From Zingiber officinale (lineage: Eukaryota; Streptophyta; Magnoliopsida; Zingiberales; Zingiberaceae), in NCBI RefSeq assembly GCF_018446385.1, contig NC_055998.1, positions 68,442,744 through 68,506,743 of the forward strand: a stretch of 64,000 nt of DNA, given 5' to 3'. Made by a program: the position numbers and the translations under genes. The notes under the pieces are model-generated. The model had not been told where the DNA came from. It saw nothing but the letters and a program-made list of their open reading frames with translations, and made no database searches. The first letter of the stretch is position 1. Each line of letters opens with the position of its first letter. Of this stretch, positions 5,623 to 50,000 are shown piece by piece.

Positions 5623-6347
5623 GGGGAAAAGTGTTGTTTATTTGGAGAAGTGAGATTTTGAGAGAATGGGTCTTGATCCGGTGGTAAGAAAGGGGGGCCC
5701 GCCCGGATGGTGGTCAACGGCCCTGTGGCGGTCGTAGTCAAAGTTAACCTATCTGAGCGATCGGCGCGGATAGCTCCCGAGCCGGCGCTTTGACAGCTCA
5801 GTCGTTATGCCGAGCTTCCGACGCTCACAAGCCAAGCAGGACTCCTTTTGTTCAGAAGACCGCGCCAGTCGCCCTCAACCGAGCGGATGACCCGCTCGGC
5901 TCAGCCGTGATGTCCACCGAACTACCGGGTGATTGACGGGTCGAGCGTCTCTTCTTTTCAGTCCAGTACATGTCCCTTCCCGAACGACAGTAAGTCCAAG
6001 CATCTCTCCCGTTCAGACTAGTAACAGACAAAAGGTGCATAAGAAGACGAAGGGGGACAGCTGGTGATATCCTTCTCGAGACATGTGTTGCCGACAAACA
6101 GCATGGTCGGCGGCCGGGCCGGACAGAGAATTGTACGATGGAAGTTTCCACTGTCAGGGTAGAGATATGCTCGAACGATTGCGGTATGGCGCCATATGTA
6201 CTTTTCTAACACATCCATTTTGAGGTATGTCTTGGGAAGCGCACACGTCTCGAGAAGCGTACACGCGCCTCCCAGGTGTCCTATATAAAGACCCCAGGCT
6301 TCGACGGAGGTATGCATTCTCATCTACTGTAGCTAGTCTTCACGCTC

Positions 6348-6720
6348 CACTACAACAAAAACCCTCATAGACATCGGTTTTCCACCGGTGTCTATTACAT
6401 TTTCGACCGATGTCTACGAAGGCGATGTAAAAGGTCTGCCATTTTAGACATCGGGTTAAAACTGTTGTAGTATCACTTAACGACACCGGTGTTTGAATCA
6501 GTTATTAACCGGTGTAGTATCACTTAACGACACCGTTTCATCAACGGTGTAAAATCGATGTAATATTATATGTTAATAACACCAGTTTTGGCAGCGGTCC
6601 ACGACCGATGTAATATTATTTAATGACACCGATTTTGCAGCGGTGGAAAACTGATGTAATATCAGTATTTTTTAACAGCACAAATTTGATTTCCGAAACA
6701 GTGAAAAATCGACAGTAACA
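6348..6720. repeat. CACTA left terminal inverted repeat and subterminal repeats
   Basis: Repeated short words (agacatcgg, acaccggtgt, cgatgtaatatt) occur in both orientations. The mirror zone is at 11690-11908. Confidence 0.8.
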
Positions 6721-6999
6721 AAAAAAATACACAAATATTCACAAATTACACAAATATTTTTCATTCAACAATATCCATAAAATACACAAATATTCACAAA
6801 TTACATAAATATTCTTCTTACAACAGTATCCATAAAATACACAAACATTCTTTTTACATCAAAAGCTAATAGATATCAGAATCAAGGTAGAACATTCTTT
6901 TAACAACACATCAAGGTAGAACATCGTGAATCAAAAATCAAGCTGAGGCTACATTAAATTATGAGAATCAGAATCTGTTCAACTTGTTATACTACTCCA

Positions 7000-7345
7000 T
7001 TCTTCTTGCGCCTTTCATTTCCCTAATCTCACCGCTTTTCACCTTCAAATGCCTAGTTTTCTGAGTTAAAACATCCACTGTTCTAATCTGTCAAACAAAA
7101 GTATCATTTGGTCTACTTAACTACAGCAAAGAACAAAAACAGAAGAATTATACATGCTGCAGAAGTCCTAGAATATCACCATCAGAAAGAAAATGACATG
7201 GGACAATATACGCAATTTACATTCCATGCAAATGCATGCATCATCCAAAGTTTTCAAAAATCAAATACCTTTCCTACTCAAATGTAATCTAGCATGCATT
7301 CAGCCCACTCGAACCGCACTTCATCAATTTCAACTCTGGAGTACT
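7000..7345 (-). other. Two unassigned exon-like segments in the CACTA interior
   Basis: On the minus strand two short open stretches each follow a pyrimidine-rich AG. One (about 7291-7360) ends in VEIDEVRFEWAECMLDYI and a stop. The other (about 7000-7085) reads LTQKTRHLKVKSGEIREMKG and then a stop. The second is rich in charged residues and may be a coiled coil. I recognise neither. They could be the element's own remnant exons or further captured host exons. Confidence 0.35.
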
Positions 7346-8604
7346 TGAGATTTGTAAACTGTAAAAATACATAAATAATATATTAGTAAACCAAGACCAA
7401 AAATCATAGTTCAAAATGCAATAAGAGCACCAGGTAACAAGATGACTAATTGGAATGCTTAAAAAGATAAACATTCATCAATTATCTCAACCACATCATA
7501 TAGTGATAGATCTATGAATAGCAGGTTCAAATCTAACCCTTGCATCCTTTTGGGAAGCAATCTAATTTGATAAACGAGAAAAAAGAGATACTATAGTCAG
7601 ATTGAATGCAAAGGTAAAGAACACTATTAATACATACTGCATGTAAGCTTCTCTAGGTTAAGCAGAAAGTGATCGAATTCAGATGTGCTCCTAGAGGACC
7701 AACAAAGCTATATAATGTCAAGAGAGTTACCATAAACAATCTCCATCTCTTTTCTACAAGAGGAAAAATCATATAGAGATCAATTGTCACTTAGTTAGAG
7801 TGAAAGCTATATATAATGGGTACTTTCCTAAGCGACAACTTGGTAACATGAAAAAAAAAACAAGATGATGCATAGAGCAATCATACACAACTCTAAGATG
7901 ATGTGGACAAGTGACAATCAAATAATGATCTGTATTATAAATAGTCTAGTGTTTATGAACACACTAAACATATTGAAGAGCATAGCCACCACCCGTGCCA
8001 CAATTATGTCCATAAAGATCAGCTAGGTACACATGCACTTTGACATGAATTAATAATTTGATTCCTTACTATTGTCCAACCTGATTAGTGTTTATTACTT
8101 GGCATGTGTCCACAATTTAATTTTTTACTATTTTCCTTAATTTGATATCATCTGAACCTGATAATAATTATTTTCAACAAGAAAGAAGGCTTACCGCCCA
8201 TGTCCAGAATCAGATATTGACCCACAAGAAAGAAGGCTTACCGCCCAACTATGCAATCTAATAATATCCACTATCTAGCTTGTTCATATTCATATAGTTA
8301 TCATGTGTGTTCAATATTCTCCCAGATATGATGAGTACAATAATTCAAACTACATGTCATAATCATGCGATCGAAAAAATCAAGATCTTTGTTTGCTCAA
8401 CATGGAATTACTGTATAATAAGACACCTGAAAGAACAGAAAATGATTAAGCAACATATGTTGGCATCAGTCACATCATATGGTAATGCTCAAATACTCAG
8501 CATTAAATCCATAAAACCACCACATTTTAAAGCAGTAAACTCATGTTTACAGAGTGCTATTACAACTTGCTAAGTTGTTAGTAACGGGGCCAGCAACAAC
8601 ATAC

Positions 8605-9380
8605 CTTTTCTATATTGTCCATCATTATTCCTTTAACCTCAGTTATATGAGCTTTCAGCTTTGAAAGTTTGCTCATTTCCTTTGGATGACTTATACAATA
8701 ATCCATATGCTCCTTCAGCCTTGGACTGTAAAAAGCAGTCACATGTTAAAGTATGACCAAACAACTACAACTAAACTAACAAACTGTAAAATCCCACTAT
8801 TTCTAGTTGCAAATGTTTTTAACTAAAAATTCCAATCAACCCTGTGAAGATCATCTCATGTTATACCAAGGGCAAAGAAATTGATAAACTGGAAGCTTAA
8901 GTGCAACAATGTGTACATACCCAAATTCCCTATCATGACTGTAAGTAGTGCTAAATTTGTCCCCAAACATATCAGCATCTTCCTCATCAATGAGAGGATG
9001 GGAGTTGTTACCACTGATACTTTGTCCATAGCGGTGCATGAAATCATCCTTGACACGTTCTAGAAACACAAATGGAACACTTCTTCCAGCTGCTTCATCA
9101 GCTACCACGAGAAACACTACACAAAAGAAAAGCAGGTATATGAAAAAAAATATCCAACACGGTGCAGAAGTAAAATTTCATTTACTGTACCAAATTCTTT
9201 GTCAACCAGGAAGTTGAATGTGCGGCAATCAGATGAGAAGGTGAATTTCTTATTATTTTGAGGCAAATTCTGTAAGCATTGGACAGCAATAGTGCTGAAA
9301 TTCCCCGAAAAGGGAGTGTATTCAGCAAGCACAACACTCCCTTTAGCCACAAAACTATAAATTAACGGTGGCTGGCTCAT
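8605..9380 (-). pseudogene. Captured VAMP727-like gene fragment (longin domain and start of SNARE motif)
   Basis: Three exons are readable on the minus strand with GT/AG introns and matching phases: 9191-9380, 8921-9116 and 8605-8725, together 169 codons in one continuous frame. The start [20 protein letters not shown] and the motif FLERVKDDF are the longin domain of plant VAMP72 R-SNAREs. The acidic insert DEEDADMFGDKF before DREFG is specific to VAMP727, the seed-plant SNARE of endosome-to-vacuole traffic. The third exon gives [18 protein letters not shown] through GIMMDNIEK, where the SNARE motif begins. The rest of the SNARE helix and the membrane anchor are not found, so a full R-SNARE cannot be made. 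An expressed product would be a longin-domain fragment. It sits wholly inside the CACTA element. Identification is confident; being expressed is only a possibility. Confidence 0.85.
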
Positions 9381-9958
9381 GTTTCTTGAAAAAATATCCA
9401 ATTAATCGGCAAAAAAAATCCATCTTCGCACCTGTAGATGAGAAACAAAAGACAAGATCTCAACTTTCACAAGTAATAAAACCAATAATTAGGGAGCAGC
9501 AATTGTGAATTCTCAAGAACTCGCGGCATACAGATCTGCGCACTGTCAATGGAAATCAACTGAAGATGGCAACATCACAGCAGAAATAGGAATGAAGAAA
9601 ATACATTAATAATAATAATTTTGCTAAAATCGCCCAAAACAGTCTTCCAGGGCAAAAATTCCAAGGAAGTACAACCCAACACCTAGCCAAAGGCTTAGAC
9701 AATCACCATTAAAATAATATTACAATAGAGGAGAATATTAAATTAAGAATTACTAATATCAATACTTATATATAACAATTGTACCCTTAATCAATTAAAA
9801 CAAGTTCACAATCATAAACAAACAAATCATAAAGCACCAAACACATAACAACAATAGAATACGACGACCAACAAAAACAATCAATCTAGAAAAAATATTC
9901 TAACTATATTAAAATTAAAATAAATTGGAATTGAATAAGAAAAAGAGATCAGGCACAC

Positions 9959-10060
9959 CTTTGCTAGCAATCTCATCGACATGGTTATCCTGACCTTTGC
10001 TCTTGATGTTGAACCATTTTTTAACAAAGGCCTTGGACCAAGACAGCTGCTCCCAAGAAA
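9959..10060 (-). pseudogene. Captured exon of a type I inositol polyphosphate 5-phosphatase
   Basis: This is a 102-base minus-strand exon bounded by a CAG acceptor and a GTGTGC donor. It contains LSWSKAFVKKWFNIKSKGQD, which resembles the N-terminal signature of plant type I inositol polyphosphate 5-phosphatases (W-x-K-x-x-x-x-K-W-[FL]-N-I-[RK]-x-K-x-x-[DE]-F-H). The catalytic domain is absent. This piece lies between the VAMP727-like and OTU-like pieces in the same orientation. The match rests on one short stretch, so it is less certain than the VAMP727 call. Confidence 0.6.
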
Positions 10061-10893
10061 CTGAGGGAACAAAGCATGCCCAAATCAACCATCTTAGAGA
10101 TGAAGAAAACAGAACTAAAGAAGAGAAATATATATTTTTTTTTTTATCTTGCAAAAAAAAACCTTGCTTTTCTTTGGATCATCATCTCTCATCGTTGCAG
10201 CACTCCTTCATGCAGTGATTGTAAGTTAGCTCGCCAAACACTCCCAAGGACCTGCGGCAATCTGAACCTCGTGGGAAGAAAGAGGTCTATTGAAGAGGTC
10301 TAGGGAAGAAAGAGGGTCAAGAAATACTAACTCGCAAGGAGAAAGAAGAAAGAAGACAAAGCTATGCATGGAACAAGCAGATGTGATGTAATATTCCTAA
10401 TGTGCTACATTACTCATGAGCTTCGCACATACAACAGATCGAAGACATAGTCGGGTACCCAAATCAGAAGGAAAGAGATTACAATGGATAACTTCTGAAC
10501 TATATAAGAAAATCTATCAAATATACAGTGAAAAGTTTAAAGGTGTCAACTAGCCTAGTCCATCTGAGCCATAGAAGTCGTCAAAGCCTTGAGTTTAAAT
10601 CTATTCCTCTCTTAAACAAAAGAAACTAAAATAAAACATTAGTATTTTGATCGCTATAGCAAGCTTTGAGAATGCTAACAAAATTGTGCATCTTGTGGCT
10701 TTCAGTACATATTGTTTAGGTTATTGTAGCTTCAAATGAATTTATTTATGCTTGCCTAAATGATGCAAATTGAGTATCAACCTCAAGTAGCTATAATATT
10801 ACAACAGAAGCACAGTGATTTTGATATGCTCATCTAAGGCCAATTTTGTTGCAGCTGAAGAGAAGAAGATGATCTCTTTACAGAAACACTTAC

Positions 10894-11181
10894 TTTTGGG
10901 CATCTTTAACCAGATTAAGTGCAAAGTTCTCCACAGGTCCAATGGAACGGTCACTTCTAACAAAAAAAAAGTTTGATCAAACTCTTCAGGCGCCCCATCA
11001 TATGGAGACATCTGCAAGAAACATATATTGAATTACAACAAAGCAAGTTAGGTTAGCTATTATGCTGAAATGTGGAAAGTGACAGTCTTTTTCTGAGACA
11101 ACCACAAAATTGACATATAGCTAATGCATCATAATGTAGGCCATCGTATATCAGCATCACCCTTTCACTGTAGTTCTTCTC
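10894..11181 (-). pseudogene. Captured fragment of an OTU-type deubiquitinase (OTU1/YOD1-like)
   Basis: Minus-strand exon-like segments at about 11115-11181 (NYSERVMLIYDGLHYDALAI) and 10894-11011 (MSPYDGAPEEFDQT) match the C-terminal half of the OTU catalytic domain of plant OTU1-like ubiquitin thioesterases. The H in GLHYDAL is the expected catalytic His. Part of the second segment continues in another frame (SDRSIGPVENFALNLVKDAQ) after a run of nine T, so this copy cannot encode the domain as it stands. The second segment has a good CAG acceptor and GTAAGT donor; the donor of the first is unclear. The catalytic Cys part is not seen. Confidence 0.75.
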
Positions 11182-11289
11182 CTGTTTCCCAATCACAAAG
11201 AAAGGGGGGAAACAAAAAATCCCTTGGCTACAGAAAAGAAAAAGTAGTAGATTCAAATCTTATGATGATACATTACCTGGCCATACACA

Positions 11290-11503
11290 TCACACCGAGT
11301 CAATCTTATGAAGACACAGTCGGACGAGCTCTTCCTGTACCTTCTCATTGAGCCGGCCAGAGCTGGATTGCACGAAGTCGACGAGCTCCGACAGCATCTG
11401 CCGCTTCACCTCCTTCTCGCGGGCTGACTTGAGCGTGTTAGAGAAGTCGAAGAGCACAGAGCAGATCCGGAGTTTGCAGAGAAAGAGCGCCTGGCGCTCG
11501 AGT
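11290..11503 (-). pseudogene. Captured fragment of a PP2A B' (B56) regulatory subunit
   Basis: The minus-strand frame reads LERQALFLCKLRICSVLFDF, then EKEVKRQMLSELVDFV and a GRLNEKVQEELV segment. This fits the conserved start of the B56 domain of plant PP2A B' subunits (K-L-x-x-C-x-V-x-F-D-F, then K-E-x-K-R-Q-x-L-x-E-L-V-D). The frame is open from about 11600 and closes at 11290. It is GC-rich, unlike the surrounding sequence, as is typical of first exons of this gene family. It lies closest to the right CACTA end and is therefore first in the row of captured pieces if transcribed leftward. Confidence 0.7.
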
Positions 11504-11689
11504 ACGGCACCGGGGGCTGGGGAGGAGTGCAGTTGGCGGGGGGAGCTGGGATCGGCGCCTGAGGAGCGGGAGGCAAAAGAAAGCGCCTGAGGAGCGGGAT
11601 CGGCGCCTAAGAATTAGGGTTTCGATTTATGGTGGGCGAGGAGAAGCCCAAAAAAAAGTGCGCTAAGAAAGTCCGTCAGAATTTTGGTT

Positions 11690-11908
11690 CATAGACATCG
11701 GATTTTAAAAATCGCAGTTAAAATCGATGTCTATTAACGGAAAAAAGGCGCTCATAGACATCGCCTAAAAACCCGATGTCTATGAGCGGAAATCTGCGCT
11801 CATAGACATCGGTTTTTGGAAAACTCGATGTAAAATACTCAAAGACATCGGTTTTTGCTTAAAACTGTTGTTGTTCCACCGATGTCTATGAGGATTTTTC
11901 TTGTAGTG
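11690..11908. repeat. CACTA right subterminal repeats and terminal inverted repeat
   Basis: Several copies of catagacatcgg and its inverse occur, ending in the inverted terminus. It mirrors the left end at 6348-6720. Confidence 0.8.
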
Positions 11909-12264
11909 CTCGTTATTCTGCCTCGATCTCTTCTCGCCGGAGCTGACTTGAGTGTCGGAGGGTCGCCGCTGGGAACCCCTTCCCAGCTCGGTTTGTATTT
12001 GCTGGTTCTCACCAGAGGCTCACACCAGTCGGAGGTTCATACGCCGTCAACAAGAGCGCTACATCCCCAGCGTCTGTCGACTCAGCGCCCGGACAGGATC
12101 AAATTGACGCCGTCTGTGGGAACGCACCTGAATCCGGAGCTGAGGCGATGGAAGAAGCTAGATGTCAACATACCTTGATGCTCTCCCAAGAAGAGCTCGA
12201 TGTGCTCATCCAGGCGCGAGCAGCGAAGATAGTGGAGTAGCAACAAAAGGCTCACGCCGAGCGG

Positions 12265-17316: not shown

Positions 17317-17426
17317 AAAGTGTGCCCATGTAATTCGTTATATGTACTTTCCATTCCTCGGCTCCCTTTGAATACAGGAATGATATCAAAAAGAAAAGAA
17401 TACACCGAACGGTTAGGCCCCATGAA

Positions 17427-17975
17427 GACCTTCGAGCGGTGACGTTAAACTCTAGAGTCGAACCGGTGACTATAAACCCCCGGCCTGAAGACCGTCGAGC
17501 GGCGATGTTAAATTCTAGGGTCGAAGCGGCGACCATAAATATCCCGCTCGGAAGACCGTCGAGCGACGATGTTAAACTCTAGGGTCGAAGCGGCGACCAT
17601 AAATATCCCGCTCGGAAGACCGTTGAGCAGCGACGTTAAACTCTAGAGTCGAACCGGCGACTATAAACCCCCCGGCCTAAAGACTGTTGAGCGGCGATGT
17701 TAAACTCTAGGGTCGAAGCGGCGACCATAAATATCCCACTCGGAAGACCGTCGAGCAGCGACGTTAAACTCTAGAGTCGAATCGGCGATTATAAATCCCC
17801 CGGCCTGAAGACCGACGAGCGGCGACGTTAAACTCTAGGGTCAAAGCGGCGACCATAAATATCCCTCTCGGAAGACCGTCGAGCGGCGACATTAAACTCT
17901 AGAGTCGAACCGGCGACTATAAACCCCTCGGCCAGAAGACCATCGGGCGACAATGATAAAATTCTAGAGTCGAAT
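17427..17975. repeat. 64-bp tandem array, two alternating monomer types
   Basis: There are about eight and a half units starting gacc-g-t-cgagcggcgatgtt, at 17427, 17490, 17554, 17618, 17682, 17746, 17809 and 17873, with a decayed unit at 17937. Type A ends in cgaccataaatatcccgctc and type B in cgactataaacccccggcct. The order is B A A B A B A B, so most of the array is a 128-bp dimer. It lies between integrase and the antisense ORFs, where Retand-type elements are known to keep amplified tandem repeats. Confidence 0.9.
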
Positions 17976-21187: not shown

Positions 21188-22050
21188 TGATCCGGTGGTA
21201 AGAAAGGGGGGCCTGCCCGGATGATGGTCAACGGCCCTATGGCGGTCATAGTCAAAGTTAACCTATATGAGTGATCGGCGTGGATAACGCCCGACCCGGC
21301 GCTTTGACAGCTCGGCCGTTATGCCAAACTTCCGACGCTCACAAGCCAAGCAGGACTCTTTTTGTTCAGAAGACCGCGCCAGTCGCCCTCAGTCGAGCGG
21401 ACGACCCGCTCGGCTCAGCCGTGATGTCTACCGAACTATCGGGTGACCGACGGGCTGAGCGTCTCTTCCTTTCAGTCCAGTACATGTCCCTTCTTGGACG
21501 GCAGTGAGTCCAAGCATCTCTCCCATTCAAAATAGTAACAGACAAAAGGTGCAGAAGAAGACGAAGGGGACAGCTGGTGATATCCTTCTCGAGACATGTG
21601 ACGCCGACAAACAGCATGGTCGGCGACCGACCGGACAGAGAATCGTACGGTGGAAGTTTCCACTGTCAGGGTAGAGATATGCTCGGACGGTTGCGGTATG
21701 GCGCCGGACGTACTTTTCTGACACATCCATTTTGAGATATGTCTTGGGAAGTGTGCACATCTCGAGAAGTGTGCACGCGCCTCCCAGGGATCCTATATAA
21801 AGACCCGAGGCTTCGACAGAGGTATGCATTCTCATCTACTGTAGCTAGTCTTCACGCTCGTTATTCTGCCTCGATCTCTTCTCGCCGAAGCTGACTTGAG
21901 CGTCGGAGGGTCATCGCCGGGAACCCCTTCTTGGCTCGATTTTGTGTTTCCAGGTTCTCACCGGAGGCTCACACCAGTCGGAGGTTCATACATCGTCAAC
22001 AAGAACGCTACGTCCCCAGCGTCTGTCGACTCAGCGCCCGGACAGGATCA
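21188..22050 (+). repeat. Tat-like 3' LTR
   Basis: This 863-base LTR runs from TGATCCGGTGG to GGACAGGATCA. A purine tract precedes it and the target duplication GGTCT follows. It gives the uninterrupted sequence through the CACTA insertion point (cttcacgctcgttattctg). Confidence 0.92.
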
Positions 22051-47000: not shown

Positions 47001-50000
47001 ACATCAGTCATAAATTTGTTTGATGTTAAGACACATTTGATATACTCACATAACAGCCAGAGAGCAACCTATCAAAAGTTCAGCCTAATTCATCCTTGCC
47101 ACATTCATAATCCCTTCAGAAGTCCAGAGATATCAAGGGTTAACCAAACACAAAACCAAATCAAGGAGCATGGACCATAGCACAGTACTTAGAATAGACA
47201 TGTTTTAAATGTCTGGGTTTATATCTAGCATATTCACTTTGACCATAGCAATCTGGAATTAGAGGAAAAGGAGCAAGTTTGACCAAAATGATCATTACCC
47301 AATTTCTGGAACAGCAATGATTCATCATCAGTGGCCACAAATGTCCTCTCACTACTAATGCTCTTCCGCATCTTTTGATGAGGAGCATCTGTTCCTCCTA
47401 TACCCAGTCCAACACAAAGAAAAAAGTCTACAAACAGCATAGATTTTATCAACTAGTTGGCACATCATCGGGACAAAGATGAAATTGTGATAAATTATAG
47501 AAAGACAGAACACAAAAAGAAGGTAAATATCACTTACTTTTTTCTCCTAGTATAAAATAGTTCTACGAAAAAACTAAACAGAAATTCAAATAAATAAAAT
47601 GAACCTATAGAAGATTTCTAGTCATGTGATGTTTGCATAATTGTTATATAGCTTATAGGTTTCATTTAAAAATTAACAATTGCTGAGAAAATGACAATCT
47701 TAATAATTCTTTGTTATACTATAAAAAAATCAATAAAGTAAATCGCCAATCAACCTTTAATATTAAATAGTAATATTCATATTCTACTATTTTTTCACAT
47801 TCTTGCAAAAATACTTTTTTCTTAAGTCTACCATAATGAGTCAAGTGCTCAGCTAACAAGCTGAGACAAATAGGAATTTGTTGCTAAACAATACTTCTTA
47901 TTTCTCTTTTTACGGTCTTGTATGAATAGCACCAGAAGAGCTAGAATGTATTATTCTAAGGTTGTCTTTGGTAAACATAAATAAAATGAAAAGGAATCAA
48001 AACAAAAACTAGAATGGAACAGAAAGCAACGATTGTTCCATTCCATTTTTTATTTGGTTGCAATAATAAAATGACATGACAAATGCAATGCTTTAACCTA
48101 TATTGAACTCTTCTCTTCTTCTAAATCATCTGATCATTTTAACTTACATGATCTATCTAATGTCTTTTAGGGCGTTCAATCAATCTAATTTGTTCAAAGC
48201 AACAAGCCTATGTGGCTCGCTTGATCCAACAATCTCGTTTCATCTGCCCAACCCAATTGATCCTCTTGGCCTACCCAACACAATTAGTTCGCCTAACCTG
48301 CCCTACCATATTAGCTAGCTAGGGTGGCTTAGTCCACTCAGCAAGTCCAATTTACTTGGTGGACCTGTCTGCACAATTTGATCGACATAATTGGCTGCTG
48401 GACCTGACCTACCCGCTCAGCTCGATAGGTCCATGTTGTCCGCCTGGTCAATCAGCCCACTGAATCCAATTGATCTGTTCATCAGTCCTAAACTCCTAAT
48501 AGACCACTAAGATTGATTGATTCACTTGACCCGACCAATTCACCCAACCAACTCAACTCAATAGGTCTACCTGACCTATCTTTTCGGCTAGACAAGTTTG
48601 CTTGATTGCTCGTCTGACCGTCCTACCCAGCTTCCACAAGCCAACCAACCTACTTGGCTTGGCCAATGTATTTGGTATGGTTGTCAGACCAACCCGATCA
48701 ACACAACTGTCCTAGTTACCCGTTTACCCAACCAATCCACCCAAACATGAGTAGCTTGCCATGCTCACCCGGCCACCTAGCCCAACTGAATTGCTTTATA
48801 TATTTGGTTCGCTCATATTATTTATTAGTTATAATTTTGAGATGATAATTTGTTAATACATGTTATATTTAATATAGATGTCATAAGGATTATCCTCCAA
48901 AGAGTGGAACGGATTTAGTTATTCATTGAAATGGATTACTCTACCCAAATTATACATCTTAAATAGATTTAGCCCACCTAGCCCAACTGAATTGCTTTAT
49001 ATATTTGGTTCGCTCATATTATTTATTAGTTATAATTTTGAGATGATAATTTGTTAATAAATGTTATATTTAATATAGATGTCATAAGGATTATCCTCCA
49101 AAGAGTGGAATGGATTTAGTTATTCATTGAAATGGATTGCTCTACCCAAATTATACATCTAAAATAGAATTAGCCCTCGAGGCAATGGTGTAGCAGCAGA
49201 GCGTCTTCTCAGTTTCTCATGCATCTAAGAATCGAATCTCAGTTTCGGCGAATTAAGGAATGAATTTCTCTTAATAGATGGTTGACCTAAGAATGTTGGG
49301 CTAATGAACCGCCCGCTGCGAGGACTTTACCTTGGTGGCCGGTGGAAAATTTCCGTGAGACCGGGCTAGTCACCCCAGGATTAGTCGACGCAAGCTGAAT
49401 ACTTGTTATCAACTAAAAAAAATATGAAGAAATGAACCATTTTAAATTTGCCACATGAAGAAATGAACTATTCTGATTCCATTCAGTTTATGTGTACCAA
49501 ATGCACTAGTATTGTAAGAATAATTTCATAATCACAAACTAAGGACCCAATTCAATTCATATAAAATATACTCTACATATTATACCCATAGATATAAATA
49601 ACAGAACAATTCACAATCACAAATCAAAGATCTAATTCTGTTCGTGCAATGTTTTTTTTAAGCAAAAATTCAAATGAAATGCTCATTGTACATTAACATT
49701 GTACACTAAGATATAGATAATTAATACCTAAAATACCAACCAGTTGAACAATGAGAAAATAATGCATGTAAGAGAGCTCCCTTTTGCAATATTTCAGTGC
49801 ACGTACTAATTCCAAGTACTTCTCTTAATATTTGTTCAGTCACCTTACCAATACCACCTACCTGCATGAACAATTAAGACTATTGAAGAGCTAGATTATT
49901 ACAGGAGAACTAAAAATTACTCAATAAAAACATCAGATTCATTGAAAAGTAAAAAAAAAAATTGCTGATAGCAGATTGTGATGGCAGATTCAATGTTCCA

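Follow-up and report, generated by a model that had tools for sequence, protein, structure and literature searches.

A 5,561-bp segment of the ginger (Zingiber officinale) genome, at 6348–11908 of the 64-kb stretch of NC_055998.1 analysed here (the window, at its full length), is an intact non-autonomous CACTA element carrying pieces of four unrelated host genes. Read from its right end, these derive from a PP2A B' (B56) subunit, the OTU1 deubiquitinase, an inositol polyphosphate 5-phosphatase and VAMP727, and all four lie on the minus strand. We located a source locus for every piece on both haplotypes, 95–98% identical apart from gaps, and the captured DNA has spread to further sites; the element, which has no transposase of its own, is almost certainly a multi-gene Pack-CACTA, non-autonomous and built up with host DNA in several steps. 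Its features are as follows (window positions; strand given where there is one):

6345–6347: left target-site duplication, CTC
6348–6378, plus: left terminal inverted repeat (CACTA...), 29/31 against the inverse of the right end
6348–7515: left unit common to other family members, several of which stop at 7495 or 7515
6370–6662: left subterminal repeats (GACATCGG motifs; 46-bp repeats at 6507–6662)
7516–8243: variable stretch from the left unit to the VAMP piece, part of it replaced in sister copies, L049 among them
8244–9674, minus: VAMP727-derived segment (leader region, exons 1–3, introns), 97.2–97.6% to L053/L055
8605–8725, minus: VAMP727 exon 3, splice sites kept, ending within the start of the SNARE motif
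8921–9116, minus: VAMP727 exon 2, splice sites kept
9191–9380, minus: VAMP727 exon 1, with the ATG at 9380
9675–9911: AT-rich stretch separating the VAMP and 5-phosphatase pieces
9912–10478, minus: inositol polyphosphate 5-phosphatase segment (5' part, frame MRDDDPKKSK), 97.5–97.7% to L075/L076
10468–11300, minus: OTU1 deubiquitinase segment (internal exons and introns, one exon frameshifted), 97.4% to L014/L015
11289–11314: joint between OTU and B', made up of the final 12 bp of the OTU match and 14 further bp (11301–11314) matching neither source
11315–11576, minus: PP2A B' (B56) N-terminal coding piece, without 43 bp of the source (Pfam B56 4.7e-14), 95.0–95.4% to L082/L083
11694–11886: right subterminal repeats (GACATCGG motifs)
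11878–11908, minus: right terminal inverted repeat
11909–11911: right target-site duplication, CTC

The structure of the element is that of the CACTA (En/Spm) superfamily: CACTA-type inverted ends, a 3-bp duplication, and subterminal repeats in both orientations. The terminal inverted repeats are 31 bp long, identical at 29 of 31 positions, and each begin CACTACAA; the left end, at 6348, reads CACTACAACAAAAACCCTCATAGACATCGG, and the inverse of CACTACAACAAAAACCCTCATAGACATCGG stands at 11908. CTC flanks the element on both sides, and a related long terminal repeat (LTR) copy near 21,859 in the window crosses the insertion point with a single CTC, so that the element can be placed as an insertion into an LTR that left the usual 3-bp mark. 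The GACATCGG/CCGATGTC motifs occur eight times in the window, in all eight cases near the two element ends; a looser 7-base subterminal pattern is less exclusive, with 11 occurrences inside the element against 12 in the remaining 58 kb. We found no intact transposase in the element, where the longest open reading frame (ORF) is 108 aa, and Pfam detected no transposase domain in the 18 ORFs scanned, a subset of those present. A first-pass annotation made from the letters alone had described intact ends, a CTC duplication, subterminal repeats and no transposase domain, and each of these holds. Pack-MULEs resemble the element in carrying transduplicated gene pieces between terminal inverted repeats. 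They have MULE ends, however, and a target-site duplication of about 9 bp, in contrast to the CACTA ends and 3-bp CTC seen here.

We searched for the source of each piece in the ginger assembly (3.09 Gb, both haplotypes; described in PMC8342452 as two haplotypes, 11 chromosome pairs and 3.1 Gb), leaving gap columns out of identities unless stated. VAMP727 sequence came from C11:21.47 Mb (97.6%) and C12:25.69 Mb (97.2%; L053, L055), the C11 locus running on into further VAMP exons with a product listed as VAMP727-like, 237 aa; the 5-phosphatase piece from C12:5.61 Mb (97.5%) and C11:4.56 Mb (97.7%; L075, L076); the OTU1 piece from C8:7.80 Mb and C7:8.95 Mb (97.4%; L014, L015); and the B' piece from C2:164.59 Mb (95.4%) and C1:144.54 Mb (95.0%; L082, L083), where the matches end as the captured piece ends. 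With gap columns counted, identity is 96–97% for VAMP727, 94% for the 5-phosphatase, 97% for OTU1 and 82% for B'. Each pair of source loci is 95–99% alike over at least 2 kb, and we take each as two alleles. The loci lie far apart (C11/C12 at 21–26 Mb, C11/C12 at 4.6–5.6 Mb, C7/C8 at 7.8–8.9 Mb and C1/C2 at 144–165 Mb). The VAMP727 and OTU1 pieces keep introns and are therefore DNA-level copies; all five splice sites of the VAMP727 piece are intact in the window copy. Capture of four unrelated host genes in one orientation, introns kept, within an intact CACTA element, and their order from the right end, were thus rightly read in the first pass, and the genome search that it had proposed yielded both parent loci and further copies of the element.

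The protein matches fared less evenly. Pfam recovered B56 (4.7e-14 at 11290–11613, minus) and Longin (1.7e-10 at 8851–9177, minus), but Synaptobrevin (1e-4 at 8578–8745, minus) fell below its cut-off, and the OTU and 5-phosphatase pieces alone gave no Pfam match. The identities of these two rest on DNA matches to loci whose neighbouring exons bear the domains: the phosphatase domain in exons adjoining the 5-phosphatase match (Exo_endo_phos2, 1.1e-7), and neighbouring OTU1 exons with the OTU1 zinc finger (1.9e-21). The C2 source of the B' piece is an intact gene whose ORF scores 1.2e-146 to B56. In the B' parent search the best 40 of 73 candidates were scored, and of 26 rows at 93–100% we examined the two source loci and L073, a sister element whose B' piece is 95.7–95.9% identical to them. 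The intact B' gene at C13:141.08 Mb (L081), initially considered the nearest, is only 80–82% alike and is not the parent. A second VAMP727-like gene pair (C8:29.59 Mb and C7:31.46 Mb) is about 70% alike to the captured piece and is not its source.

The element belongs to a large family. For its left 301 bp there are 2,315 candidate places, and the best 40 of these, when scored, all matched at 95–100%. With the OTU query, 38 candidates yielded 38 matches; 26 had full or nearly full cover, and two of these were the source genes, so that the copies number 24, the window's among them. With the VAMP query, 37 candidates yielded 40 matches, of which 17 had full or nearly full cover; two were again source genes, and the copies number 15, the window's included. 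For the 5-phosphatase and B' queries the best 40 of 139 and the best 40 of 79 candidates were scored, and copy counts are lower bounds. When positions from the match lists were grouped within 6 kb they formed 82 groups. Eight of the 15 VAMP copies (including the window) also carry OTU, and thus all four pieces: six of the eight show all four in the match lists, the copy at C14:69.79 Mb (L022) continues to the right end, and that at C2:76.9 Mb is split near 10180 (L020, L056). No OTU match was present in the groups of the other seven VAMP copies. The four pieces were not found as neighbours outside CACTA ends: all eight four-piece copies align to the right CACTA end within one base, and the left end was seen in three, those whose sequence reached that far. 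We considered the C14:69.79 Mb copy (97%) as an allele of the window copy; its right flank differs, and it is a separate insertion. The target-site duplication of another copy, L049, is ATG.

Members of the family differ chiefly in what lies to the left. The other OTU copies share the right half of the window element from about 9708–9759, but their left halves differ. In L070 (219–1309; C17:84.85 Mb) the start of a soluble inorganic pyrophosphatase (PDB 6mt1, 4.9e-11) replaces VAMP727. L030-type elements (C6:35.49, C18:95.87 and C4:44.85 Mb, and others) lack OTU and retain the right unit only, from 11289; in L030 itself this unit adjoins a minus-strand piece of a MraW-type methyltransferase (Pfam 9.4e-5, below cut-off). 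Left of the equivalent of window position 9759, L012 and L025–L028 hold a promoter-like stretch with a TATA box and a short host-gene exon at the place occupied by VAMP727 in the window, and an exon similar to that short exon adjoins the pyrophosphatase piece in L070. All six assigned pieces, four in the window and two in sister copies, are on the minus strand, a result with a chance of 0.03 that was computed post hoc, and we claim no rule of one-way capture. One further piece (Y, in L071) has a plus-strand frame that resembles a plant protein; Pfam gave no confirmation, and we left it unassigned.

The joints between pieces give part of the order in which the load was assembled. In the OTU-less L073 (C7:93.43 Mb) a 918-bp 5-phosphatase piece directly adjoins a 392-bp B' piece, and L054, which is the same place as L073, and L057 are alike at this joint. 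In the window both pieces are shorter than in L073 and OTU lies between them; B' and the 5-phosphatase were thus joined first and OTU was added later. Copies that have OTU and copies that lack it alike hold VAMP to the left of the 5-phosphatase, an arrangement suggesting that VAMP capture also predates OTU. Divergence from source is 4.6–5.0% for B' and 2.3–2.8% for the other pieces, in line with early capture of B', although this piece is short. At the start of the L030-type right unit are the same 12 bp with which the OTU match ends, followed by 14 unmatched bp nearly identical to those of the window, and we best read the L030-type arrangement as a later replacement. Left halves were swapped among copies later than the entry of OTU. 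A tree was built from 20 OTU-bearing rows, which included two source genes; considered jointly, the left-half types cluster in it (5 changes; 0 of 200 shuffles as low).

We infer that each capture began with two related elements in the same orientation flanking a gene, which would have been joined by loss of their inner ends, as in the fusion model of Pack-CACTA formation; the product would be moved by a CACTA transposase supplied elsewhere. The captured pieces are mostly passengers. OTU fits such a fusion, since the 5-phosphatase and B' units on either side of it are both shortened. Several points weigh against this account. The fusion step is itself inferred, and gap repair would leave similar joints. 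The tree is weak, with 2 of 17 inner branches well supported, and fails to group the VAMP-type copies (132 of 500 shuffles as low), so that the order of assembly rests on the joints. About 1 kb of the element (7516–8243 and 9675–9911), together with 6680–7515, has no assigned origin.

The alternative in which a break inside a single element was repaired by copying gene DNA, through gap repair or template switching and without fusion of two elements, is possible, if somewhat improbable. It would account for the 14 bp at the OTU/B' joint, which correspond to neither source and, judged by eye, look like sequence lying just within the OTU piece (CAATCTTATGA against CAAATCTTATGA), and for the 11 bp by which the parent alignments overlap at the 5-phosphatase/OTU joint. 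Shortened units on both sides of OTU are what fusion predicts, but they are compatible with gap repair too.

Some copies of the family have entered gene catalogues. The NCBI ginger entries P0002 and P0003, both named VAMP727-like, match CACTA copies better than they match the VAMP727 gene. Over exons 1 and 2, P0002 (186 aa) is identical to the C18:101.2 Mb copy; its C-terminal tail, TFELDEFLLDVTTITYE, is encoded inside that element, behind an AG acceptor. P0003 (204 aa) best fits the C13:74.05 Mb copy, and in the 4.5 kb examined beside its VAMP exons we did not find its tail exon. Two hypothetical proteins, P0004 and P0005, have their best matches in copies L057 and L064. All four are gene models, read from the NCBI entries, and we saw no entry for the window copy among the ginger entries compared. 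On leftward transcription of a copy, splicing could join VAMP exons 1–3 to whichever exon is downstream, and the gene model of one sister copy is built in this way; such a chimeric RNA has only indirect support, since gene entries match two sister copies. That the element yields small RNAs silencing the parent genes we consider unlikely; the pieces are close enough to the four host genes (95–98% apart from gaps) for small RNAs to match both. We hold it slightly less likely still that the family works as a combinatorial exon shuffler, with fixed CACTA ends and interchangeable gene modules (the identified ones leftward), in which the VAMP727 leader and start, spliced to the next exon, would give a varying output of short longin-domain proteins, or of small RNAs, with possible effects on the parent VAMP727.

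The VAMP exons are best read as drifting passengers in which change is mostly neutral. Among the 15 copies, changes unique to one copy comprise 53 nonsynonymous, 3 stop and 21 synonymous (69/4/27%). Neutrality would give a similar split, 71.5/2.4/26.2%, under a transition weight of 4, which was set and not estimated from the data. Per column, exons carry more of these changes (77 in 507) than introns do (26 in 280); stops occur in the VAMP exons of three copies and gaps in those of three. That VAMP-bearing copies encode a useful truncated longin-domain protein under selection is, on these counts, very unlikely. It would be consistent with the splice sites kept in the window copy, with the 12 of 15 copies free of exon gaps and with the two copies entered as VAMP727-like genes. 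A first count against the parent had suggested constraint on the reading frame; unique changes fit neutrality, but those shared by at least two copies are more often synonymous (36 to 24, a change being tallied once for every copy bearing it), and some older constraint on these exons may have acted. Chance protein resemblance or an assembly join, which might be suspected because Pfam alone detects just B' and VAMP, has a negligible probability given 262–1431 bp at 95–98% DNA identity to four gene loci, and is already refuted by the recurrence of the same joints at several independent sites. Elsewhere in the window lie a tandem array (17423–17975; 64-bp unit, 8.6 copies, 80% alike) and a 201-bp unit in two head-to-tail copies (48773–49176; 97% alike).

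The element is real and well located, and its kind, Pack-CACTA, is already known. Among the cases described in the sources cited here, the nearest is soybean Tgm-Express1 (wp allele), reported as a 5.7-kb CACTA element with five unrelated host-gene fragments that are spliced into chimeric RNAs (PMC1947982). It is alike in being a CACTA element of similar size with several unrelated host-gene fragments including introns, and the first-pass view that four genes are a heavy load for such an element does not stand beside it: the load is not exceptional. As described there, Tgm-Express1 differs in host, in its genes, in lying in a gene intron and in its evidence from reverse-transcription PCR; the ginger element sits in an LTR, is known from DNA alone, and has many sister copies in which swapped pieces are visible. 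Pack-CACTAs of Arabidopsis, rice and maize (Catoni 2019, cited in PMC8903248 and PMC13317346) are reported to share CACTA ends, a short duplication, absence of transposase and coding DNA from several loci; tandem fusion of adjacent elements has been proposed as their mechanism (PMC8903248, PMC13317346). In maize they are stated to hold the most distinct loci among Pack types, and most rice and maize CACTA Pack elements are given as low copy (PMC8903248), in contrast to the 15 VAMP and 24 OTU copies in ginger. No paper on this CACTA family was present among the top-ranked matches in literature on ginger or Zingiber and CACTA.

What distinguishes the ginger family is that its source genes, capture order and piece swapping between copies are unusually legible. 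That some ginger gene entries named VAMP727-like match transposon copies is relevant to gene counting and to expression studies. The family also offers a readable record of how a multi-gene load builds up, with four sources on both haplotypes, joints that can be located almost to the single base, and sister copies that look like surviving intermediates. Because sources, joints and apparent intermediates are all in ginger, the fusion model of capture is testable in one genome.

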